Source: Psychroflexus sediminis (GTDB lineage: Bacteria > Bacteroidota > Bacteroidia > Flavobacteriales > Flavobacteriaceae). Taken from it: a stretch of 35,947 bases of DNA. How positions within the stretch are numbered: the first letter of the stretch is position 1; each line of letters begins with the position of its first letter. Position numbers and translations under genes: made by a program. The notes beneath the pieces are model-generated. The model worked only from the letters and a program-made list of their open reading frames with translations, was not told the origin of the DNA and made no database searches. Below are positions 26,066 through 35,947 of this stretch, piece by piece. The stretch spans positions 1 to 35,947 of the forward strand of contig NZ_FNCW01000015.1 in NCBI RefSeq assembly GCF_900099815.1, written 5' to 3'.

Positions 26066-26084
26066 AAAAAAAAATTTTGAAAGA

Positions 26085-26092
26085 CAAATTTA
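26085..26092 (-). promoter_or_regulatory. Putative -7 element of the 2OG oxygenase gene
   Basis: TAAATTTG on the minus strand, ending 19 bases before the ATG at 26065. Confidence 0.42.
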
Positions 26093-26150
26093 ATGAATTT
26101 TCTTCAACAAGAATTTTAGGAATCTTAATAATTAAAAGTTTTCATTATGA

Positions 26151-26158
26151 TACATTTG
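26151..26158 (+). promoter_or_regulatory. Putative -7 element of the E1 dehydrogenase gene
   Basis: TACATTTG matches TAnnTTTG and ends 23 bases before the chosen ATG at 26182. It lies inside the upstream extension of the open frame, which argues for the later start. Confidence 0.5.
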
Positions 26159-26181
26159 GAAAGCCAGTTAAAATACAGTTT

Positions 26182-28158
26182 ATGAAATTTGAACATCATT
26201 CTATATCCAAAGATCAACACATTGATTTATTTAAAAGCATTTTAAAGCCCCGTCTTATCGAAGAAAAAATGCTAGTGCTTTTACGGCAAGGCAAAATTTC
26301 AAAATGGTTTTCCGGTATTGGTCAGGAGGCTATAGCTGTAGGAGTGACAAAATCTTTATTACCAGATGAATATATTTTACCGATGCACAGGAATCTCGGT
26401 GTCTTTACCGAACGACATATTCCTCTGTATCGTTTGTTTTCTCAATGGCAGGGCAAACTGAATGGATTTACAAAAGGAAGAGATCGAAGTTTTCATTTTG
26501 GGACTCAGGAGTTTAAAATTATCGGTATGATTTCTCATTTAGGGCCACAACTGGGCGTCGCGGATGGCATTGGTCTAGCGCATAAGCTGAAAAATGAAAG
26601 TTCTGTGACCGCTGTTTTTACTGGTGAAGGAGGAACGAGTGAAGGTGATTTTCATGAGGCGCTCAATGTTGCATCGGTATGGCAGCTGCCCCTGTTATTT
26701 TGTGTAGAAAATAACGGCTACGGGCTTTCAACACCAACAAACGAGCAGTTTAATTGTGAACACATTGCAGACAAAGCCGTGGGCTACGGCATGGAATCGC
26801 ACATTATCGATGGAAATAATATCGTAGAGGTGTTTACCAAAGTCAGTGAAATTACAGAACGTATACGACAAAATCCGAAACCTGTACTGCTTGAATTTAA
26901 AACCTTTAGAAGAAGAGGACATGAAGAAGCAAGCGGTACCAAATACGTGCCAGATGAGTTGATGAAACACTGGGAAAAACTAGATCCTGTAGATAATTAT
27001 GAGCTCTTCCTTTTGGAATCCAAATTTTTGACAGAAAGGGAAATTTCTTCAATAAAGTCAGAGTTAAAATCAGAAATCGATGAACACCTCAAGTTAGCCA
27101 ACAAAGAAGTGGAAGTAGAAGCTGATGAAGCTACCGAATTGCAAGATGTTTTTAAGCTATATGAGTTTAATGGGCAACTGCCTTCTCCCCGGAAAACCGA
27201 ACTGCGTTTTATCGATGCTATTTCTGATGGCTTGAAGCAAAGCATGGAAAAATTCGAGGATTTGGTCATTATGGGGCAGGATGTTGCAGAATACGGTGGT
27301 GTCTTTAAAATTACGGAAGGTTTCTTAGAAATGTTTGGAAAAGAAAGAGTTCGAAACACGCCTATTTGTGAGTCGGCTATTATTTCAGCAGCGATGGGGC
27401 TTTCCATAAAAGGAATAAAGTCGGTGGTTGAGATGCAATTTGGTGATTTTGTGACATCTGGATTTAACCCCTTGGTGAACTACCTGGCTAAAGTTCATTA
27501 CCGCTGGGGTCAGAATGCAGATGTGGTGATACGCATGCCTTGTGGAGCAGGAGTAGGTGCAGGACCTTTCCATAGCCAAACCAATGAGGCCTGGTTTACC
27601 AAAACACCAGGATTGAAGGTTGTTTATCCCTCAAGCCCACAAGATGCAAAAGGCTTATTGATAGCAGCTATCCAAGATCCTAATCCGGTTTTGTTTTTTG
27701 AACATAAAGCGCTGTACAGAAGCATTAGAGGGGAAGTTTCAGATGATTATTTCACTATAGAACTTGGAAAAGCCAATAGAGTACAGGAAGGCGATAAACT
27801 TACAGTCATTACTTACGGTGCTGCTGTTCACTGGGCTTTAGATGTTTTAAAGCAGTACCCTGACATTTCTGTAGAACTCATTGATTTAAGAACTTTGTCC
27901 CCTCTGGATGAAGAAGCCATTTTTGCCTCTGTAAAGAAAACAGGAAAAGTCATTATATTTCAGGAAGATTCTTTATTTGGAGGAATAGCTTCAGATATTT
28001 CAGCGCTTATCTCTGAACATTGTTTTGAATATTTGGACGCCCCAATAAAACGCGTAGCAAGCTTATCGACTCCTATTCCTTTTGCTAAAAACCTGGAAAA
28101 TCAATATCTGGGGAAATCAAAATTTGAAGAGGCCTTGATAACATTAAATAAATACTAA
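26182..28158 (+). CDS. 2-oxo acid dehydrogenase E1 component, alpha and beta subunits fused
   Basis: 658 residues from ATG 26182. The frame is open 35 codons earlier, but that part covers a promoter element. Residues 1 to about 320 are an E1-alpha domain with the TPP motif GEGGTSEGDFHEALN ending in the ENN of FCVENNGYGLSTP. Residues about 345-655 are an E1-beta domain: IMGQDVAEYGGVFKITEGF, ICESAIISAAMGLSIKG and FHSQTNEAWFTKTPGLKVVYP (core HSQTNEAWFTKTPGLKVV). The enzyme decarboxylates a 2-oxo acid and passes the acyl group to E2. The fused single-chain form is characteristic of Bacteroidota. Likely substrates are branched-chain 2-oxo acids, so it would supply iso- and anteiso-acyl-CoA primers. 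E2 and E3 genes are not in the window. Confidence 0.92.
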   Translation: MKFEHHSISKDQHIDLFKSILKPRLIEEKMLVLLRQGKISKWFSGIGQEAIAVGVTKSLLPDEYILPMHRNLGVFTERHIPLYRLFSQWQGKLNGFTKGRDRSFHFGTQEFKIIGMISHLGPQLGVADGIGLAHKLKNESSVTAVFTGEGGTSEGDFHEALNVASVWQLPLLFCVENNGYGLSTPTNEQFNCEHIADKAVGYGMESHIIDGNNIVEVFTKVSEITERIRQNPKPVLLEFKTFRRRGHEEASGTKYVPDELMKHWEKLDPVDNYELFLLESKFLTEREISSIKSELKSEIDEHLKLANKEVEVEADEATELQDVFKLYEFNGQLPSPRKTELRFIDAISDGLKQSMEKFEDLVIMGQDVAEYGGVFKITEGFLEMFGKERVRNTPICESAIISAAMGLSIKGIKSVVEMQFGDFVTSGFNPLVNYLAKVHYRWGQNADVVIRMPCGAGVGAGPFHSQTNEAWFTKTPGLKVVYPSSPQDAKGLLIAAIQDPNPVLFFEHKALYRSIRGEVSDDYFTIELGKANRVQEGDKLTVITYGAAVHWALDVLKQYPDISVELIDLRTLSPLDEEAIFASVKKTGKVIIFQEDSLFGGIASDISALISEHCFEYLDAPIKRVASLSTPIPFAKNLENQYLGKSKFEEALITLNKY

Positions 28159-28218
28159 AAAAGCCTTAATCCCGAAATATACATGTAACTTAGAAATTGA
28201 ACCATAAAAAAGATCATT

Positions 28219-28380
28219 ATGATACGATGGATAATTACATTTCTTGTTATCGCATTAGTTGCCGCCGTCTTAGGTTTCGGTGGAATTGCTGAAGGCGCTG
28301 CCGATATAGCTAAAATCATCTTTTACATTTTTATTGTCTTATTTATCATCTCGCTTATCGGAAAACTTTTCAGACGATAG
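28219..28380 (+). CDS. DUF1328 small membrane protein
   Basis: 53 residues with two hydrophobic helices, [19 protein letters not shown] and [19 protein letters not shown], joined by a short segment EGAADIAK and ending in basic RR. The GFGGIAxxAAxIAKI core is the DUF1328/YtjA signature. Stress-inducible small inner-membrane proteins of this family are widespread; their function is unknown. It is a single gene between the E1 dehydrogenase and a hairpin terminator. Confidence 0.88.
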
Positions 28381-28390
28381 ACGATCATAC

Positions 28391-28431
28391 ATCCGTAAGT
28401 TTATTTTTGATATAGATTTACGGATTTTTTA
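28391..28431 (+). terminator. Terminator after the DUF1328 gene
   Basis: ATCCGTAA and TTACGGAT form an 8-bp stem with a 19-base loop, followed by six T residues. Confidence 0.7.
28402..28409 (+). promoter_or_regulatory. Possible -7 element of the lipocalin gene
   Basis: TATTTTTG lies inside the loop of the terminator hairpin, about 44 bases before the lipocalin ATG. Chance is plausible in AT-rich sequence. Confidence 0.3.
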
Positions 28432-28452
28432 TTTTAACTTATTAAATCACTT

Positions 28453-28926
28453 ATGAAATATATTTTAACGATTGTAGTTGCTTTTTTAATCACGTCATGC
28501 GGTCCTGCTTATCTGGCCAATCAAGTGGAGAAAGACTTTAAAGGAGATTGGGTTTTAGAATCCATTTCTTATCCAGATGCTTCAGGCTTATTTGATGTAG
28601 AACTCTTTAATCTTTCCTCAGCCTCTTGTTTTGAGAATTCAGTGTGGAAATTTATTCCAAATAACAGTACAGGGAGTTTTACTTTAGACGGAAACAATTG
28701 CATCAAAACTGAACAGCAGTTTAAATGGTATGTTGATAAAACAACAGCCGAGAATTTCAGTCCCGAGATGTTGTTAAAGATAACGACGGGGCAAAAAGCC
28801 AGAAAGGTTGATACAGGAACTAGGATAAAAATTAAATCTTTGTTAGAAAGTCAAATGGTATGGGAGCAAAACGCTATGTTTAAAGGAGAAGAAATAACAA
28901 TAGAAATGACATTTTCAAAATTATAA
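28453..28926 (+). CDS. Lipocalin-like lipoprotein
   Basis: 157 residues. A lipoprotein signal (VVAFLITSC) gives lipidated Cys16. The mature part begins with FKGDWVLESISYPDASG, the G-x-W motif typical of lipocalin-like barrels, with two Cys (about residues 57 and 78) that may pair. The fold assignment is from the GDW motif and length and is not certain. It is directly followed, two bases later, by an OmpA-family lipoprotein. This pairing recurs in Flavobacteriia by my recollection. It probably sits in the periplasm or at the outer membrane and binds a small hydrophobic ligand. Confidence 0.72.
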   Translation: MKYILTIVVAFLITSCGPAYLANQVEKDFKGDWVLESISYPDASGLFDVELFNLSSASCFENSVWKFIPNNSTGSFTLDGNNCIKTEQQFKWYVDKTTAENFSPEMLLKITTGQKARKVDTGTRIKIKSLLESQMVWEQNAMFKGEEITIEMTFSKL

Positions 28927-28928
28927 TT

Positions 28929-29624
28929 ATGAGAAACTTTAAGAATAAATCATTAATAATATTAGTTGCCTTTGCTTTTTTATTTAGCTCCTGTGAGGCT
29001 ACAAAAAACACCAATAAAACTCAGCGCGGAGGTGCTGTAGGTGCCGCAAGTGGTGCAGTGATTGGCGGTGTTATCGGTAATAATGTAGGGGATGGAGACA
29101 ATACGGTTCTCGGAGCTATTATCGGTGGTGTAGTTGGTGGTGCCGCTGGTGCCTATATTGGCAACAGAATGGATAAACAGGCCAAAGAAATAGAACAAGA
29201 AATTCCGGGAGCAGAAGTAACCAGAGTAGGTGAAGGTATCAACGTTACTTTCGATGAAAATTCTGGTGTTTATTTTGCTACCGATAAAGCAAACATCAGT
29301 GGGAAATCTGAAATTTCACTGTTGAAATTGATTAATATTTTTCAAAAATACCCTAAAACAAATATCATTGTTGAGGGACATACAGACTCTACAGGAAGCG
29401 AAAGTTATAATATGCAGTTGTCGAAGGAACGCGCTCAAGCGGTGACCAATTATTTGATCAGTAATGGAATTGAGGATTCTAGAATCAAAACCAACTGGTA
29501 TGGTGAAGAACAGCCTAAATATGATAATTCAACGGCAGTTGGACGCTCCAAAAACAGAAGAGTTGAACTGGCTATCGTTGCCAGCGAAGAATTGAAGGAA
29601 GAGGCCCGTGAAAAGGCTCAGTAA
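28929..29624 (+). CDS. OmpA-family lipoprotein with glycine zipper
   Basis: 231 residues. The signal LVAFAFLFSSC gives lipidated Cys22. Residues about 33-80 are a glycine zipper (GAVGAASGAVIGGVIG..., then GAIIGGVVGGAAGAYIG). Residues about 105-215 are an OmpA C-terminal peptidoglycan-binding domain with IIVEGHTDSTGSESYNMQLS, SKERAQAVTNYLISNGI and the end GRSKNRRVELAI. It should tie the outer membrane to peptidoglycan. It shares a transcript with the lipocalin gene and ends in a strong terminator. Confidence 0.93.
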   Translation: MRNFKNKSLIILVAFAFLFSSCEATKNTNKTQRGGAVGAASGAVIGGVIGNNVGDGDNTVLGAIIGGVVGGAAGAYIGNRMDKQAKEIEQEIPGAEVTRVGEGINVTFDENSGVYFATDKANISGKSEISLLKLINIFQKYPKTNIIVEGHTDSTGSESYNMQLSKERAQAVTNYLISNGIEDSRIKTNWYGEEQPKYDNSTAVGRSKNRRVELAIVASEELKEEAREKAQ

Positions 29625-29689: not shown

Positions 29690-30805
29690 ATGAATATTTA
29701 TGATGTTATAATTATTGGTGGTGGTTTAGCAGGATTAACTTCAGCCATAGATTTATCTATAAATGGGTTTGAAGTTTTACTCATTGAAAAAGATGAATAT
29801 CCTAAACATAAGGTCTGTGGTGAATACGTTTCCAATGAAGTTTTACCTTACTTAAAACGGCTTGGTGTCGACATCAGTAAAACCAAAGCCGATCAAATCC
29901 AGCGCTTAGTCTTAAGCAATCGTAAAGGAAATTCAGTCAGGGTTGAACTTCCTCTTGGTGGATTTGGAATGTCCAGATATGCTTTGGACAATCTCATGTA
30001 TGAGAAAGCGAAATCCAGTGGCGTTGAATTTAAATTTGAAACCGTGACTGATGTTGCTTTTGAAGATCATCACTTTTGCATCAAAACCCATTCAGCTGAA
30101 TTTTACGCTGAACTGGCTATTGGAAGTTTTGGAAAGCGCTCCACCTTAGATAAAAAATTAGACAGGGATTTTATCCATAACAAAACGCCCTGGATTGGTA
30201 TTAAAGCCCATTATCAAAACGATGATTTTCCTGACGGAGAAGTACAGCTTCATAATTTTGAGGGCGGATACTCCGGGCTATCCAAAACTGAAACGGGTGC
30301 GGTCAATTTTTGTTATTTAGCACATTACGATAGCTTCAAACAGGAAAGGTCTGTTGAAGATTTCAATAAAAATATTGTAGCTCAAAATCCTAAACTGAAT
30401 TCCTTCCTCAATAATGCTGACTTGCTTTTTGATAAGCATCTGGCGATTTCACAGGTGTCTTTTCAGAATAAAAATGCGGTTGAAAATCATATGTTGATGG
30501 CCGGAGATTCTGCCGGACTCATTCATCCGCTTTGTGGAAACGGCATGGCCATGGCGATACACTCGGCTAAACTGCTTTCAGATGAAATCAAAAATTATAA
30601 AAATCATCGGAGCAGATATCAGCTAGAAAAAAATTATACACAAATCTGGAAGCAGACTTTTCGCAAAAGACTTATTTTCGGTTCCTTATTTCAGAATATA
30701 CTTTTACAACCAAAACTCACAAACATCGGCATGTTAGCTGTTTCCAAATCGCCTTATTTACTCAAGAAAATGATTCAACAAACCCACGGAAAGCCGATTT
30801 TATGA
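29690..30805 (+). CDS. FAD-dependent oxidoreductase (geranylgeranyl reductase / hydroxylase-like)
   Basis: 371 residues. The dinucleotide-binding motif VIIIGGGLAGLTSAIDLS (Gly10-x-Gly-x2-Gly15) is at the N-terminus, with EKDEYPKHKVCGEYVS after it. The FAD-binding AGDSAGLIHPLCGNGMAMAI is at about residues 270-290. This layout is that of the geranylgeranyl-reductase/PHBH-like flavoproteins that reduce isoprenoids, hydroxylate aromatic rings or saturate enoyl groups. It opens the type III PKS cluster and overlaps the next gene by four bases (ATGA). It probably tailors the polyketide or lipid product; the specific reaction is not determinable. Confidence 0.88.
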   Translation: MNIYDVIIIGGGLAGLTSAIDLSINGFEVLLIEKDEYPKHKVCGEYVSNEVLPYLKRLGVDISKTKADQIQRLVLSNRKGNSVRVELPLGGFGMSRYALDNLMYEKAKSSGVEFKFETVTDVAFEDHHFCIKTHSAEFYAELAIGSFGKRSTLDKKLDRDFIHNKTPWIGIKAHYQNDDFPDGEVQLHNFEGGYSGLSKTETGAVNFCYLAHYDSFKQERSVEDFNKNIVAQNPKLNSFLNNADLLFDKHLAISQVSFQNKNAVENHMLMAGDSAGLIHPLCGNGMAMAIHSAKLLSDEIKNYKNHRSRYQLEKNYTQIWKQTFRKRLIFGSLFQNILLQPKLTNIGMLAVSKSPYLLKKMIQQTHGKPIL

Positions 30806-31512
30806 AACAAATCTCCACCATAACTCGAAGCAAGGAGGCTGAAATCATGGATAAGTTTGATTTTAAGGGGGATGAGCTCAAAAGCGTCCTTGAGACGATC
30901 GATAAGATCAACGCCAAACTCGGTGGACACCGCGTCACCATCAAAGGCATTCAGAAACTTTTAGAAAATCATCCCCGAAAACATCTTGTCATTGCAGATT
31001 TGGGATGTGGAAGCGGAGATGCGTTAAGACAAATATCTAAATGGGCCAAAAAACAAGGTATTAACGTTCAACTCATCGGTATAGATGCCAATCCGCATAC
31101 GATACAGGTGGCCAGAGAGTGGTCCAGAGATTATAAGAATATTTCTTACAGAGTAATCGATGTGTTTAGCGAAGATTTTGATGATTTTGAGGCCGATATT
31201 ATAACCTGTTGTCTGACTCTTCACCATTTTGAAAATAAGTTTATAAAAAAATTAGTACCAATTCTTTCAGATAAAGCTAGTTTGGGTCTGGTTATCAACG
31301 ATTTACACAGAAGCAAAGTAGCCTATAGGTTATTTGAATTATATTGTTCAGTCTTTGTAAATTCAGATATTGCAAGAAAAGATGGTTTAACTTCTATTTT
31401 AAGAGGGTTTACCTCAGAAGATTTAGAAAATTTTGCCAAAGAATTAAATTTAAAGCACCACATCACATGGTATTGGGCATTTCGATACCAGTGGATAATT
31501 TATAGCTCATGA
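30802..31512 (+). CDS. SAM-dependent methyltransferase of the type III PKS cluster
   Basis: 236 residues. The first frame start overlaps the FAD gene by four bases; an internal ATG at 30847 (MDKFDFKGD) is an alternative. Motif I is VIADLGCGSGDALRQIS, the acidic motif II end is IGIDANPHT, and motif post-II is IITCCLTLHHFENKF. The C-terminal part (LVINDLHRSKVAYRLF) is of the type seen in methyltransferases beside bacterial chalcone-synthase genes. It most likely methylates the polyketide ring or a hydroxyl. Its stop overlaps the PKS start by four bases. Confidence 0.88.
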   Translation: MKQISTITRSKEAEIMDKFDFKGDELKSVLETIDKINAKLGGHRVTIKGIQKLLENHPRKHLVIADLGCGSGDALRQISKWAKKQGINVQLIGIDANPHTIQVAREWSRDYKNISYRVIDVFSEDFDDFEADIITCCLTLHHFENKFIKKLVPILSDKASLGLVINDLHRSKVAYRLFELYCSVFVNSDIARKDGLTSILRGFTSEDLENFAKELNLKHHITWYWAFRYQWIIYSS

Positions 31513-32561
31513 GTGTAAAAATAGATACAGTTGCCACACAGACTCCACAGTATTACAAGGAAACCAAGGATATAATTCCATTTGTGGAAATGTGGCTGTC
31601 GAATGAAGATGAAAGGTTCAGGAGAAAAGTTATCAAAATTTATGAAGGGGCCAAGGTCGACAAGCGCTATTCCATCATGGATCCGGAGGAGGTTTTTTCG
31701 GCGACCTCATTTGAAGATAAAAACCGAATTTACACTCGGGAGGCTAAAATCTTGGGGAAAAAGGTTTTAGAAAAAGCATTGCATCAGGCGGGATGGTTAG
31801 GCCAAAGCCTGGATTACATCATCACGGTGAGTTGTACAGGAATAATGATTCCATCTTTAGATGCTTTTCTTATCAATGATTTAGACCTCAGACAGGATAT
31901 CGTTAGGCTTCCGGTGACAGAAATGGGTTGTGCAGCTGGTATTTCGGGTATGATTTACGCCAAGCAATTTCTTCAGGCGAATCCCGGTAAACGAGCAGCT
32001 ATTGTTTCATTTGAAGCCCCTACGGCTACCTTCCAGCTCAATGATAAATCGATGGCAAACATGGTGAGCTCCGCTATTTTTGGGGATGGCGCTGCCTGTG
32101 TGTTGATGAGTTCAGAAGAGGCCTGCAGGGGGCCTAAAGTATTGGGAGAATCCATGTATCATTTTTACAACGATACCCATATGATGGGCTTCGATCTGAC
32201 CAATTCCGGGCTGAAAATGGTACTCGACATCGATGTGCCTGAGAAAATCAGTGAACATTTTCCACAGATAATTCATCCTTTTTTAGAAAACCATCATCTG
32301 AAAATCGAAGATATAGATCATCTTATCTTTCATCCCGGAGGTAAGAAAATTATCAATACCGTGGAGGCTCTTTTTGGGGCTATGGGTAAAAATATAGACG
32401 ATACCAAGGAAGTGCTGAGGCTTTTCGGAAATATGAGTAGCGCAACTGTGCTTTACGTGCTGGAGCGCATGATGAAAAAACCAATCGAGAAAGGGGAGAA
32501 GGGATTGATGCTGAGTTTCGGACCAGGATTCTCAGCTCAGCGCATTCTTTTAGAATGGTAA
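31509..32561 (+). CDS. Type III polyketide synthase (chalcone/stilbene synthase family)
   Basis: 350 residues, the usual size of a bacterial type III PKS. The catalytic triad is complete: Cys141 in VTEMGCAAG, His275 in HLIFHPGGKK and Asn308 in FGNMSSAT. Other marks are SCTGIMIPSLDAFL (109-122), IFGDGAACVLM and the C-terminal SFGPGF loop. The enzyme extends an acyl-CoA or acyl-ACP starter with malonyl-CoA units and cyclises the chain to a pyrone or resorcinol. With FAS-type genes directly downstream, a long-chain starter is a reasonable inference. It begins inside the stop codon of the methyltransferase gene. A 78-base gap with a small hairpin separates it from the next gene. Confidence 0.95.
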   Translation: MSVKIDTVATQTPQYYKETKDIIPFVEMWLSNEDERFRRKVIKIYEGAKVDKRYSIMDPEEVFSATSFEDKNRIYTREAKILGKKVLEKALHQAGWLGQSLDYIITVSCTGIMIPSLDAFLINDLDLRQDIVRLPVTEMGCAAGISGMIYAKQFLQANPGKRAAIVSFEAPTATFQLNDKSMANMVSSAIFGDGAACVLMSSEEACRGPKVLGESMYHFYNDTHMMGFDLTNSGLKMVLDIDVPEKISEHFPQIIHPFLENHHLKIEDIDHLIFHPGGKKIINTVEALFGAMGKNIDDTKEVLRLFGNMSSATVLYVLERMMKKPIEKGEKGLMLSFGPGFSAQRILLEW

Positions 32562-32577
32562 CCTGTTTTCTATATGC

Positions 32578-32599
32578 ATTCCGACCGGTACTTCGGAAT
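32578..32599 (+). other. Small hairpin between the PKS and enoyl reductase genes
   Basis: ATTCCGA and TCGGAAT form a 7-bp stem with an 8-base loop in the longest gap of the cluster. There is no T tract, so it is not a clear terminator; it may adjust expression or processing between the two halves of the operon. Confidence 0.4.
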
Positions 32600-32639
32600 C
32601 TAATACAGATAAGATTAAACATTAAATAATATTTAGCTT

Positions 32640-33422
32640 ATGGCCAACTCATCACTTAAACATTACGCCCTGGTTTTAGGAGGGAGTCAGGGTCTTGGAT
32701 ATGCTTCAGCCTTGAAATTAGCTCAGAAAGGTTGGCACATACTGATCATCCACAGAGATAGAAGAAGTGATTTACCTGAAATTGAAGCTAAATTTGAAGT
32801 CATTAAGCAATGCGGAGTCGATCTCAAAACATTTAATCTGGACGCCACAAATTCAGAAAAAAGAAAGGAATTTGTAAGTCAGCTTCCAGAACTCCTCGGT
32901 GAATCCGGTAAAATTAAACTGCTGCTTCATAGCATCGCCAAAGGAAACCTGAAAGCTATGACAGGCGATTCACCTCTCAATCAAACCGATTTGCAAATCA
33001 CAGTCAATGCCATGGCTTATAGTTTTTACGACTGGTCTAAAGCTATTCTGGAAGCTGGCTGTTTTGCAACCAATACAAGGCTGTTAGCTTTTACAAGCGA
33101 AGGAAATCAACGGGTTTGGAAACATTATGCCGCTGTTTCAGTGGCCAAAACAAGCCTGGAAACCTTGATGAAATATATGGCTACAGAGTTTGCTGAGTAT
33201 GAAATCACAGCCAACTGCATTCAGGCGGGAATGGTGGAAACTCAATCTTTCCAGATGATTCCTGGTCATGAAGAATTGAAAGCAAGTACTGAAAAGCGAA
33301 ATCCCTTTCAGCGATTGACACAAGCTGAAGATGTCGCTAATGTGGTTTATCTGCTGAGCTTAGAAGAAGCTAACTGGATTACCGGGAGTATTATCAAAGC
33401 AGATGGTGGTGAGAGTCTCTAA
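32640..33422 (+). CDS. Enoyl-ACP reductase-like SDR (FabI/FabL type)
   Basis: 260 residues. The cofactor loop GGSQGLG is at 14-20, LLLHSIAKGN at 95-103 replaces the usual NNAG, and the catalytic pair Tyr163 and Lys170 is spaced Y-x6-K. The HSIAxxN and Y-x6-K features are those of enoyl-ACP reductases (FabI, FabL) rather than classical SDRs, which have Y-x3-K. The end IKADGGESL fits. It would reduce the double bond of an enoyl-ACP or a related conjugated chain. It is a second, cluster-specific copy in addition to the housekeeping enzyme expected elsewhere. It is followed after six bases by the dehydratase gene. Confidence 0.85.
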   Translation: MANSSLKHYALVLGGSQGLGYASALKLAQKGWHILIIHRDRRSDLPEIEAKFEVIKQCGVDLKTFNLDATNSEKRKEFVSQLPELLGESGKIKLLLHSIAKGNLKAMTGDSPLNQTDLQITVNAMAYSFYDWSKAILEAGCFATNTRLLAFTSEGNQRVWKHYAAVSVAKTSLETLMKYMATEFAEYEITANCIQAGMVETQSFQMIPGHEELKASTEKRNPFQRLTQAEDVANVVYLLSLEEANWITGSIIKADGGESL

Positions 33423-33428
33423 TAACAT

Positions 33429-33875
33429 ATGATAATGAAATCATCCAAAATTATTTCGAAATTACCATACCAGGAGCCTTTTCTGTATGTAAAAAGCATC
33501 GATAAGATTTCAGAAAATTTTATAAAAGGGAGCTACACCTTTAAGGCTTCTTCCTGGTTTTACAAAGGGCATTTCAAAAATAACCCCATCACTCCAGGCG
33601 TAATTCTTACCGAATGTGCTGCCCAGATCGGCCTGGCCAGTTTTGGACTGTATCTGTTATCCAATCAGGAAAATATAGATTTGGAACAAGTGAAACTGGC
33701 GATGACTTCAACAAATGTTGAGTTTCTTAAACCTGTTTTACCCGGCGAAAAGGTGATTGTGGAAGCTGAAAAAATGTATTTTAGATTCAATAAATTGAAA
33801 TCCTCTGTCAAAATGTATAATTTGTCCGGAGACTTGGTGCTGAGCGGTGAACTTGCAGGTGTTATTTTACCCTAA
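33429..33875 (+). CDS. 3-hydroxyacyl-ACP dehydratase (FabZ-like hotdog)
   Basis: 148 residues; a second ATG two codons in is possible. The hot-dog fold has WFYKGHFKNNPITPGVILTE, with the catalytic His48 in GHF and Glu62 in LTECAAQIG. The family pattern is GHFPxxPxxPGVLxxE, so the match is good. It would dehydrate a 3-hydroxyacyl thioester to the enoyl form, feeding the adjacent enoyl reductase. It stands two bases upstream of the ketosynthase. Confidence 0.88.
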   Translation: MIMKSSKIISKLPYQEPFLYVKSIDKISENFIKGSYTFKASSWFYKGHFKNNPITPGVILTECAAQIGLASFGLYLLSNQENIDLEQVKLAMTSTNVEFLKPVLPGEKVIVEAEKMYFRFNKLKSSVKMYNLSGDLVLSGELAGVILP

Positions 33876-33877
33876 CT

Positions 33878-35152
33878 ATGGATAAAAAAAGAGTGGTCAT
33901 AACAGGAATGGGCGTTGTTGCCCCCAATGCGACAGGACTTTCTCAGTTTGAGGAGGCTATAAAGGCAGGTAAAAGCGGGATTCAATTCCATGAAAAACTG
34001 GAAGAGCTAAAATTCAGCTGTCAGATAGGGGGTGTACCAAAGGTATCTCAGAATGTGATGGATCACTACTTCACCGCTTTAGAGCAGCGCGGGCTTTTGG
34101 CGACGGGTCTGATTTATGGGGGAATCGCAGGTCAAGAAGCCTGGGCCGATGCACAGCTGGAAATCAACGAAGAACTCGATATTGATACTGGAATCATTTT
34201 TGGGACGGGCGTTCTCGGTGTTGAAAAATTGAGAGAAGCTTTTTATAAGATAGATGATAAGCAAGTCAGAAGATTGGGAAGTACCAGTGTTTTGCAAACC
34301 ATGGCCAGTGGGATTAGCGCCTTTTTAGGTGGTAAATTGGGTTGTGGAAACCAGGTCACCTCCAATTCTTCAGCCTGTTCCACGGGAACGGAAGCTTTAT
34401 TGATGGGGTTTGAACGTATTCAGTATGGAAAGGCCAAACGCATGCTGGTTGGGAGTTGTAGTGACTCCGGACCCTACGTATGGGGTGGTTTCGACGCCTT
34501 ACGGATTTTACCACACCAGTACAATGACCGGCCTGAGATAGCCTCCCAGCCCATGTCGGCAACGGCTGCAGGTTTTGTGCCTTCAAGTGGTGCAGGAGCA
34601 CTGGTTTTGGAAAGTCTGGAGTCTGCTTTAGAAAGGGGCGCCAGTATCTATGCAGAAGTTTTAGGAGGACACCTCAACTCTGGCGGTCAACGCGAACAGG
34701 GAAGCATGACGGCTCCCAATTCTGCGGCGGTTATAAGCTGCATATCGGAGGCCTTAAGGCAAGCTGATGTAAATTCAGAAGAAATTGACCTCATCAACGG
34801 ACATCTCACGGCAACGGCCATGGATGCTACCGAAATCAAAAACTGGGCAAAGGCTTTGGGTTTGGAAAGAAAAGATTTTCCTTATATCAATTCTTTGAAA
34901 AGTCATATAGGTCATGCTTTGGCAGCGGCCGGTAGTATAGAACTGGTGAGTTCTGTTTTGGAGCTGTCTCGGGGATTTATTTTTCCAAACCTCAACTGTG
35001 AAACCATTCATCCGAAGATTTTGAAGCTGGTTAAGGAAGATAAAATACCAAGAGAATTACTGGAAAAAAAAGTAAAGCTTTTGGCCAAAGCAAGCTTCGG
35101 ATTTGGGGATGTCAACGCCTGTGTAATTTTAAAATCTTATGACGATGAATAA
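33878..35152 (+). CDS. Beta-ketoacyl-ACP synthase (KAS II-like)
   Basis: 424 residues with the thiolase fold: VVITGMGVVAPN at the start, catalytic Cys167 in SNSSACSTGTEALL, His309 in INGHLTATAMD and His346 in LKSHIGHALAAAG, and the terminal ASFGFGDVNACVI. The triad C-H-H is that of FabF-type condensing enzymes using malonyl-ACP. The first histidine motif is usually HGTST; here it is HLTAT, so Leu replaces the invariant Gly, which may alter substrate choice. With the upstream dehydratase and reductase it makes a partial, cluster-specific FAS cycle. A ketoreductase is missing. Confidence 0.92.
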   Translation: MDKKRVVITGMGVVAPNATGLSQFEEAIKAGKSGIQFHEKLEELKFSCQIGGVPKVSQNVMDHYFTALEQRGLLATGLIYGGIAGQEAWADAQLEINEELDIDTGIIFGTGVLGVEKLREAFYKIDDKQVRRLGSTSVLQTMASGISAFLGGKLGCGNQVTSNSSACSTGTEALLMGFERIQYGKAKRMLVGSCSDSGPYVWGGFDALRILPHQYNDRPEIASQPMSATAAGFVPSSGAGALVLESLESALERGASIYAEVLGGHLNSGGQREQGSMTAPNSAAVISCISEALRQADVNSEEIDLINGHLTATAMDATEIKNWAKALGLERKDFPYINSLKSHIGHALAAAGSIELVSSVLELSRGFIFPNLNCETIHPKILKLVKEDKIPRELLEKKVKLLAKASFGFGDVNACVILKSYDDE

Positions 35153-35372
35153 GCGACAACTCAAAAAACGCTATTGGTTTTTCGGTGGATTAGGCACCGC
35201 AATTCTGGGATTTGGACTTTCTGCTTTGGTAGAAAGTGGTTTTTTAAAACATAGCAATGCTCCAGAATGGCAATGGATTCTGGCTGGAACTCTATCCTTA
35301 ATACTAGTTTTGACCGGGATTAACTTCTTGTTTGAGAGTTTCAGGTGTAAGCAAAAGCTAGGTCTCGACTGA
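35139..35372 (+). CDS. Two-helix membrane protein at the end of the PKS cluster
   Basis: 77 residues, starting 14 bases before the ketosynthase stop; MTMNKRQ offers a second ATG at 35145. A basic N-terminus (MNKRQLKKRYW) is followed by hydrophobic segments of about residues 12-33 (FFGGLGTAILGFGLSAL) and 45-66 (WILAGTLSLILVLTGINFLF) and a basic Lys/Arg end. No family is recognised. The overlap and direction indicate it is the last gene of the operon. It may anchor the pathway to the membrane; that is speculation. Confidence 0.7.
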   Translation: MTMNKRQLKKRYWFFGGLGTAILGFGLSALVESGFLKHSNAPEWQWILAGTLSLILVLTGINFLFESFRCKQKLGLD

Positions 35373-35398: not shown

Positions 35399-35434
35399 GA
35401 CCTGACAAAGATTAACAAGGTTTAGGAATATCAA
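35399..35434. repeat. 36-bp direct repeat, copy 1
   Basis: Begins GACCTGACAAAGATTAACAAG and ends GGAATATCAA. It is the partner of the copy at 35562-35597, with three differences. Both are followed by TCGA-containing sequence. It lies between the PKS cluster and the IS110 fragment in a 250-base gene-free gap. Confidence 0.9.
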
Positions 35435-35561
35435 ATCGAACTTCTGGAAATTTTTGCATCTCATCTAATATAAAGTGACTCTTTTTATTTGTTTTAGCAT
35501 CAAGTACTTCAATACTTCAGTATAAACTCTGTCGAGATGTAGTCGGTTCTCAACTCTTCTC

Positions 35562-35597
35562 GACCTGACAAAGATTAACAAGATTTTGGAATGTCAA
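35562..35597. repeat. 36-bp direct repeat, copy 2
   Basis: Begins GACCTGACAAAGATTAACAAG and ends GGAATGTCAA, 163 bases after copy 1 and about 30 bases before the IS110 transposase stop codon. It could be a dispersed intergenic repeat into which the insertion sequence landed. Confidence 0.9.
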
Positions 35598-35626
35598 CTC
35601 GAGCATTCTAAGTTAAAAACAAATTT

Positions 35627-35947
35627 TTAAGCCGATAATTTCACAAAAGGTTCATCTCTTTTTGCAACAGCAAATATTCTTAAAACGAGTTTATTAGCGA
35701 TGGCGTTTATTACACTCATGTGATGTTTTCCATCTTTAATCTTACGATTGTAATATGCCTTTAGCTGAGGATCATGCTGTGCAGCTGTGATAGCTCCCTT
35801 TGTCAAAATAGATTTTAAAGATTTATCTCTCAGAAAATGAGTCTTGGTTTTTCCTTTAATACTGCTTCCCGACTGGTATGGAAAAGGAGCTAAACCACAG
35901 TGGCAGCTAAATTTTCTTGGATTATCAAACTTATTAAAATTACCTGT
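35627..35947 (-). CDS. IS110-family transposase, C-terminal fragment (cut by window edge)
   Basis: 106 codons in frame with the last base of the window, ending at TAA 35627-35629. The sequence RKFSCHCGLAPFPYQSGSSI, then KGAITAAQHDP, YYNRKIKDGKHHMSVINAIA and ANKLVLRIFAVAKRDEPF is the Transposase_20 (IS116/IS110/IS902) C-terminal domain. The Ser in the PYQSGSS stretch lies where the catalytic serine of the family is expected, and the Y-x-RK-x-x-x-GK pattern is diagnostic. The N-terminus lies outside the window. Together with the left fragment it cannot form one uninterrupted protein by simple circular joining, since about 180 codons would be missing. Confidence 0.9.
   Translation of the reverse strand, partial: TGNFNKFDNPRKFSCHCGLAPFPYQSGSSIKGKTKTHFLRDKSLKSILTKGAITAAQHDPQLKAYYNRKIKDGKHHMSVINAIANKLVLRIFAVAKRDEPFVKLSA

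Follow-up and report, generated by a model that had tools for sequence, protein, structure and literature searches.

A conserved Bacteroidota operon pairs a type III polyketide synthase triad with a candidate private type II fatty-acid synthesis module

Introduction

Operons that encode a type III polyketide synthase (PKS) together with a methyltransferase and an oxidoreductase are known from actinobacteria, cyanobacteria and planctomycetes (PMC9927152, PMC8086630, PMC10896814). Some type III PKSs are on record as users of chains bound to an acyl carrier protein (ACP): a review lists GCS, SCO7671, ArsB and ArsC (PMC6274091), and CylI is described as receiving a carrier-protein-bound chain (PMC8086630). 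Type III PKS clusters are given as 10.74% of Flavobacteriaceae biosynthetic clusters by one count (PMC10734526) and as 9% by another (PMC7440613). Here we analyze a type III PKS operon of Psychroflexus sediminis that lies in a stretch of 35,947 nucleotides (NZ_FNCW01000015.1), called the window below, which is an entire contig (C15) of a 2.97-Mb genome in 36 contigs. The triad of flavin adenine dinucleotide (FAD)-dependent enzyme, methyltransferase and type III PKS that opens this operon is of a known kind. The unusual part is the private type II fatty-acid synthase (FAS) module that accompanies it, namely a short-chain dehydrogenase/reductase (SDR) of the enoyl-ACP reductase type, a FabZ-like dehydratase, a ketosynthase (KS) and, on a second contig, an ACP with a phosphopantetheinyl transferase (PPTase). 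We think it likely that this module is a dedicated acyl-ACP supply that feeds a specialized type III PKS, whose ring product is then methylated and oxidized.

Results

We searched two samples of genomes for the gene set, one of 149 relatives and one drawn evenly from the phylum (395 genomes); five genomes are in both, leaving 71 distinct genomes with a PKS orthologue. In the relatives, PKS orthologues were sequences of at least 66% identity plus one that is truncated at a contig end, and in the phylum sample we required E<1e-150 for the PKS and E<1e-160 for the KS. The genomes are related and the counts are thus not independent events. Among the relatives, 43 have orthologues of both PKS and KS, none has the PKS alone, two have the KS alone (metagenome-assembled genomes that are 80% and 52% complete) and 104 have neither. 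In the phylum sample, the 33 genomes with a PKS orthologue and the 33 with a KS orthologue are the identical 33 genomes. The KS orthologue and a special ACP were present in 71/71 genomes with the PKS orthologue, also where the genes are unlinked. The gene set is common to many Bacteroidota, being found in Flavobacteriaceae and some other families, and its distribution over genera is patchy. An earlier note, written from the sequence of the window, had proposed that the FAS-type genes are coupled to the PKS triad; the two samples bear this out, as the two halves co-occur in every one of the 71 genomes.

The genes are also held together in order. The FAD enzyme and methyltransferase genes flank the PKS gene in 42/42 relatives with a full-length PKS and in 28/28 further phylum genomes; in the 43rd relative (G018) the contig is cut inside the PKS gene, and KS, ACP and PPTase genes lie on another contig (L195). 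FabZ and KS genes lie within the PKS locus in 37 of the 42 relatives and in 28/28 phylum loci, the five exceptions (G012, G009, G019, G015 and G002) having the FabZ-KS pair elsewhere in the genome. These frequencies indicate that the gene order is far beyond chance. The ACP gene is within the locus in 32/42 relatives and 28/28 phylum loci. The remaining ten ACP genes are that of the window's own genome, on contig C25, and those located elsewhere in the nine Psychroflexus-genus genomes searched (52-65% identity), where a PPTase gene comes directly after the ACP gene in 9/9 cases. We did not find the special ACP in three other Psychroflexus-genus genomes (G003, G010, G017), which are also without PKS and KS and whose best ACP match is 31-33% identical. 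A PPTase was detected in 18/42 relatives' loci, in the ten cases with the ACP elsewhere, in 25/28 phylum loci and in G018, that is, in 54/71 genomes. The system has a private ACP, with an adjoining PPTase gene in these 54 genomes, and the suggestion of the earlier note that chains are built on the host ACP finds no support. We also observed a conserved open reading frame (ORF) of ~143 aa after the ACP position in eight loci (for example L072:14012-14452), at least four of which (L062, L066, L072, L094) are without a detected PPTase.

In the window the operon is broken at its end. The last gene fragment of the contig (35627-35947, minus strand) is the end of an IS116/IS110/IS902-family transposase gene (PF02371), and the insertion begins 28 bp past gene 7. 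At this point the Psychroflexus aurantiacus operon (L081/L054) continues into genes for an ACP of 84 aa and a PPTase of 173 aa, and a DNA search of the window's own genome located the matching ACP-PPTase stretch at the start of contig C25. This contig opens with 40 minus-strand codons, a fragment without Pfam match that we read, by eye, as the N-terminal end of an IS110-type transposase. When each contig end was aligned to P. aurantiacus, the match of the window ended at 35400 and that of C25 started at base 356; in the relative a single base separates the two matching parts. Because other contig ends of the genome bear the same IS110-family element, the join of C15 and C25 is one that we only infer, from these alignments. 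We take the seven genes, the ACP and the PPTase as one nine-gene operon, FAD-methyltransferase-PKS-SDR-FabZ-KS-TM2-[insertion]-ACP-PPTase, where TM2 is the small protein with two hydrophobic segments. The absence of an ACP that was noted before is thus true of the window and not of the operon, whose ACP and PPTase genes resume on C25 behind the insertion; we reject an ACP-less cluster as an edge effect of the IS110-carrying insertion that breaks the contig. Between the operon and the IS110-family copy are ~190 bp (35401-35600) that are not common to other strong copies of the element. A short repeat family seems to sit beside the insertion, since ~35428-35556 matches eight dispersed places of the genome at 75-90% identity.

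The PKS of the window matches PF00195 and PF02797 above cut-off, and its AlphaFold model (predicted local distance difference test score, pLDDT, 84.1) is closest in Foldseek to Pks11 and then to CylI. A phylogeny of 114 type III PKSs of the Bacteroidota was computed with FastTree. It includes 87 orthologues, all distinct, which were taken from the 42 relatives, the 28 additional genomes of the phylum sample and 17 named loci (10 of 27 such loci were omitted as repeats or truncated), and 27 other PKSs. The orthologues group in a single clade with a long stem (support 0.954), next to a group that includes PKSs of triads to which no FAS module is linked. At the thresholds chosen, seven columns of the alignment set the clade apart from the 27 others, and two of these columns are informative. 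Residue 171, which aligns with a Cys of Pks11 and with the Cys205 position of PKS18 (Phe in the C205F structure), is Pro in 87/87 orthologues and Cys in 27/27 others. Residue 228, which aligns with Trp230 of Pks11, is Phe in 87/87 orthologues and Trp in 27/27 others. The Cys141-His275-Asn308 triad named in the earlier note is present and is kept in all 87 orthologues and all 27 others. A DpgA-like function was discarded (NCBIfam DpgA match of 174 bits against a cut-off of 425).

The Trp at this position is described as essential for resorcinol formation in ArsB and as conserved in FtpA, SrsA, PKS10 and PKS11, and an enzyme with Tyr in its place as yielding triketide pyrones only (PMC5916927); ArsB has Trp281 where ArsC has Gly (PMC9927152). 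The earlier note had offered a methylated alkylpyrone, alkylresorcinol or quinone-like lipid as product, and the replacement of the resorcinol-marker Trp by Phe in all orthologues weakens the alkylresorcinol and quinone part of this proposal. Because of Phe228 we lean to a non-resorcinol ring of the alkyl-pyrone type, which is our leading candidate at just under an even chance. A resorcinol or quinone is somewhat less likely, and some other product is rather unlikely.

The FAS-type enzymes of the operon are extra copies, as had been supposed. Apart from the operon, the genome encodes its own FabF, LpxC-FabZ fusion, FabG, FabI-like protein and AcpP, and these separate copies rule out that the operon enzymes are the sole FAS enzymes of the host. 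Host FabF (605 bits), LpxC-FabZ (745), FabG (347, on contig C14) and AcpP (139 versus 92) score above the NCBIfam cut-offs; the host FabI-like SDR (141 bits) is below cut-off, and there are two FabH-like proteins too. The operon KS, in contrast, is 35% identical to host FabF, and together with the FabZ-like protein it scores below the cut-offs. The active-site residues of a type II elongation set are in place. The Cys-His-His of the KS lines up with FabB-type solved structures, the catalytic His and Glu of the dehydratase with those of solved enzymes, and the Tyr-x6-Lys of the SDR with that of the enoyl-ACP reductase 3oic, 3oic/3oid being the sole Protein Data Bank (PDB) match at E<=1e-20; the ACP has its serine (PF00550). 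The Y-x6-K enoyl reductase of the earlier note is thus confirmed, as is its statement that the seven genes include neither a ketoreductase nor an exporter (Pfam/NCBIfam), a FabG being available from the host.

Related FabZ-KS-ACP modules without a linked type III PKS were seen in five phylum genomes (KS 46-50% identical; SDR in three, PPTase in two). In L196 and L197 (genomes G244 and G527) an SDR-FabZ-KS-ACP-PPTase module with a 49-50% identical KS is divergent beside another cluster, which in L197 encodes, by Pfam, a KAS III-like protein, a BtrH-N/DUF4872 protein and a second ketosynthase; look-alike ORFs were seen by eye in L196. L198, L199 and L200 (G223, G272 and G193) have FabZ-KS-ACP modules, with a GNAT-like gene beside L198 and a family 2 glycosyltransferase beside L199 (Pfam) and look-alikes of both genes, by eye, in L200. 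These three loci possibly represent a glycolipid pathway that uses the same FAS module. The five genomes also have a non-orthologous type III PKS; because this is true of 134/395 sampled genomes and two of the modules adjoin another cluster, we draw no conclusion from it.

The AlphaFold model of the FAD enzyme (pLDDT 88.1) gave the halogenases Bmp2, PltA and ChlB4 as best Foldseek matches, with 3-hydroxybenzoate 6-hydroxylase and UbiI scoring alike. Flavin halogenases have a W-x-W-x-I-P motif, and inspection of the FAD enzyme by eye did not reveal it. Given the similar scores of the hydroxylases and the motif not being seen, we do not claim a halogenase; the enzyme may be a ring hydroxylase or oxidase acting on the PKS product.

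All seven ORFs of the window lie on the plus strand, between 29690 and 35372, where the earlier note had placed them (Table 1). The junctions are, in order, -4, -4, +78, +6, +2 and -14 bp, so that its description by 4-bp overlaps, small gaps and one gap of 78 bp is correct except for the last overlap of 14 bp; the two halves that it called fused are merely adjacent genes. A start 6 bp further downstream is possible for the seventh ORF. The six enzyme assignments are backed by Pfam and NCBIfam profile searches, and their NCBIfam scores below the equivalog cut-offs indicate that the enzymes are divergent family members. The 77-aa seventh protein had no family match in Pfam or NCBIfam; its homologues adjoin the ACP-PPTase pair, preceding the ACP, in three relatives where this pair lies elsewhere. 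We searched for a Bacteroidetes-type promoter motif in three places, namely before the FAD gene, within the 78-bp gap and between insertion and ACP, and the best matches were no better than those in shuffled sequences. The stretch upstream of the operon (26077-29624) holds a long ORF in two parts that looks dehydrogenase-like by eye, an ORF of 157 aa and a gene for an OmpA-family protein that has a glycine zipper.

Table 1 Features of the operon and its broken end. Positions are those of the window unless contig C25 is named.
Feature	Position	Strand	Basis or remark
FAD-dependent oxidoreductase, PHBH / geranylgeranyl-reductase superfamily, 371 aa	29690..30805	+	Pfam/NCBIfam, FAD_binding_3/GG-reductase-like
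Class I S-adenosylmethionine (SAM)-dependent methyltransferase, 236 aa	30802..31512	+	NF004851/PRK06202-like, below cut-off
Type III PKS, 350 aa, Cys141-His275-Asn308, Pro171 and Phe228 clade-specific	31509..32561	+	Pfam/NCBIfam, alignments, model
FabL/FabI-type enoyl-ACP reductase, SDR with Y-x6-K, 260 aa, accessory	32640..33422	+	NCBIfam best match FabL
FabZ-like 3-hydroxyacyl-ACP dehydratase, FabA/FabZ hotdog, 148 aa	33429..33875	+	Pfam; catalytic His and Glu align
FabB/FabF-type ketosynthase, 424 aa, Cys-His-His	33878..35152	+	NCBIfam; alignment
Small protein, 77 aa, two hydrophobic segments seen by eye	35139..35372	+	ORF only
Insertion: short dispersed repeat and C-terminal end of IS110-family transposase gene	35401..35947	-	Pfam, DNA comparison
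ACP	C25 493-747		PF00550; motif ..NSANLVD..
PPTase	C25 744-1265		PF01648; 4-bp overlap with ACP

Discussion

In the pathway that we propose, the PPTase, where present, would arm the private ACP, on which the private KS, the dehydratase and the optional enoyl reductase would build or elongate an acyl chain, FabG and probably the malonyl-ACP supply being borrowed from the host. The chain would then pass as acyl-ACP to Cys141 of the PKS, which would add malonyl-CoA units and cyclize it, and the methyltransferase and the FAD enzyme would methylate and oxidize the resulting ring. The acyl-ACP hand-over, the direction of flow and the type of ring are the steps that we infer.

Several observations weigh against this proposal. 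A PPTase was not detected in 17/71 genomes in a search confined to the loci. The SDR is found in 38/42 relatives' loci and missing from 4/42, and a strong adjacent SDR match was found in 8/28 phylum loci (10 if two weak or distant matches are counted) and is missing in 20/28. Of the seven genes whose joint conservation the earlier note proposed to look for, the SDR gene is thus a variable member. Chain saturation is thus not a constant of the system, and differences in saturation between lineages are predicted. In one genome (G024, 86% complete) the KS gene is split by one in-frame stop (G024:C29:14432-15691; L106:11244-12521), reflecting a sequencing error or a decaying copy; in G230 and G085 the stops lie outside the KS reading frames, which are intact. 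As for the ring, CylI, a resorcinol maker by its structure title, has Leu at the position of Phe228 in our alignment, and Pks11 has Trp at this position although its PDB entry labels it an alpha-pyrone synthase; residue 228 therefore does not prove the type of ring. The 27 PKSs used for comparison, moreover, were hand-picked to cover several families among the 134 genomes of the phylum sample in which a non-orthologous PKS was matched. Finally, the operon PKS may use acyl-CoA, and in the window's strain the insertion may have uncoupled the expression of ACP and PPTase.

The most serious competing explanation, which we regard as somewhat unlikely, is that the locus is an srs/pkq/hid triad of the Bacteroidota, in which ordinary acyl-CoA or host acyl-ACP leads to an alkylresorcinol. 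Methylation and oxidation would turn this compound into a lipid of the quinone or hydroquinone type, and the only role of the FAS genes would be to tune chain length. The same three kinds of enzyme do stand side by side in 70/70 loci, and homologous triads without a linked FAS module occur in other Bacteroidota (L211-L214, L221, L222). Such triads are described as yielding polyketide quinones in Streptomyces and Mycobacterium (PMC9927152), alkylresorcinols in Planctomycetota (PMC10896814) and hierridins (PMC8086630). However, the exchange of the resorcinol-marker Trp for Phe and of Cys171 for Pro throughout the clade does not fit this explanation well, and the retention of a private ACP with the PKS, even unlinked, goes beyond what chain-length tuning needs.

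The flow could also be parallel or reversed, with KS, FabZ and ACP either making another acyl chain, to which the PKS product is then coupled as an ester or C-acyl lipid, or extending the PKS product itself. No computed result fixes the direction. Five phylum genomes have related modules without a linked type III PKS, and two of these modules adjoin a KAS III-like cluster, which implies that the FAS module is able to serve other pathways. We nonetheless find this improbable: no acyltransferase or thioesterase family was found among the seven genes (Pfam), and in the known pairings of a FAS or PKS with a type III PKS, as described, the starter comes from the partner (from ArsA for ArsB/C and from a type I PKS for CylI; PMC6274091, PMC8086630). 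That housekeeping lipid genes came by chance to lie beside the PKS triad at a conserved chromosomal place deserves hardly any credence. The place is indeed conserved, as six upstream gene families, to which the upstream genes named above belong, are found next to the operon in 30-36 of 60 loci, which indicates that the site is old. Against chance, however, the genes are kept together where they are unlinked (KS and FabZ in the five exceptions, ACP and PPTase in nine genomes), PKS, KS and special ACP are all missing together from G003, G010 and G017, and the host has separate copies.

The gene set is a defined unit of nine genes, with a private ACP and with two PKS residues by which its clade is told apart from all other type III PKSs of the Bacteroidota that we compared. 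A bolder reading, which we hold only tentatively, is that it represents a distinct class of system: an acyl-ACP-dependent type III PKS that cannot do without a private mini-FAS of type II (KS, dehydratase and ACP, an enoyl reductase as an option and in most cases a PPTase), in which Pro171 and Phe228 mark the loss of a resorcinol-type pocket. Its product would be an undescribed methylated, oxidized ring-lipid that Flavobacteriaceae and several further families of the Bacteroidota have retained as a lipid with a membrane or redox role. Within the CC-licensed PMC literature, whose silence is weak evidence, we found no product assigned to this operon and no description of a discrete private type II FAS coupled to a type III PKS whose active site is specific to its clade. 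If the acyl-ACP hand-over is real, the system would correspond, with a type II FAS, to the Azotobacter partnership of a type I FAS and type III PKSs, and a large class of orphan lipid clusters would have an explanation.

Among the known systems, SrsB and BpsB are methyltransferases of the isoprenylcysteine-methyltransferase type, whereas the methyltransferase of the window is a class I SAM-dependent enzyme. In srsABC and pkqABC a type III PKS, a methyltransferase and an oxidoreductase likewise share one operon (PMC9927152); here the order is FAD enzyme, methyltransferase, PKS, Phe stands for the resorcinol Trp, and the triad is followed by the private type II FAS genes, including those for ACP and PPTase. 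The hierridin genes hidABC and the planctomycete operons are similarly tricistronic, with methyltransferase, oxidoreductase and type III PKS, and the gene descriptions by which we compared them include no FAS module (PMC8086630, PMC10896814). Pks11 (4jao/4jap) is the best PDB match of the window PKS both by sequence (182 bits) and by fold (TM score 0.92, 31% identity), but its Trp230 and tunnel Cys are Phe and Pro here. CylI, the second-best structural match, shares with our proposal the delivery of a carrier-protein-bound chain to a type III PKS, a hand-over that is conjectural here; in the cyl cluster, as described, this chain is made by type I PKSs from decanoate on the free ACP CylB, and the tailoring is different (PMC8086630). 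In the Azotobacter ars operon a FAS is dedicated to type III PKSs by acyl-ACP hand-over (PMC6274091), a step that we presume for the present system. As in ars, we found dedicated, genetically coupled FAS-type enzymes and a carrier protein (KS and ACP in 71/71 genomes), and we did not find a multidomain type I FAS in this set. ArsA is a type I FAS, as the title of Miyanaga 2008 states, whereas the Bacteroidota operon has discrete type II genes for the KS, dehydratase, enoyl reductase and ACP, without a ketoreductase.

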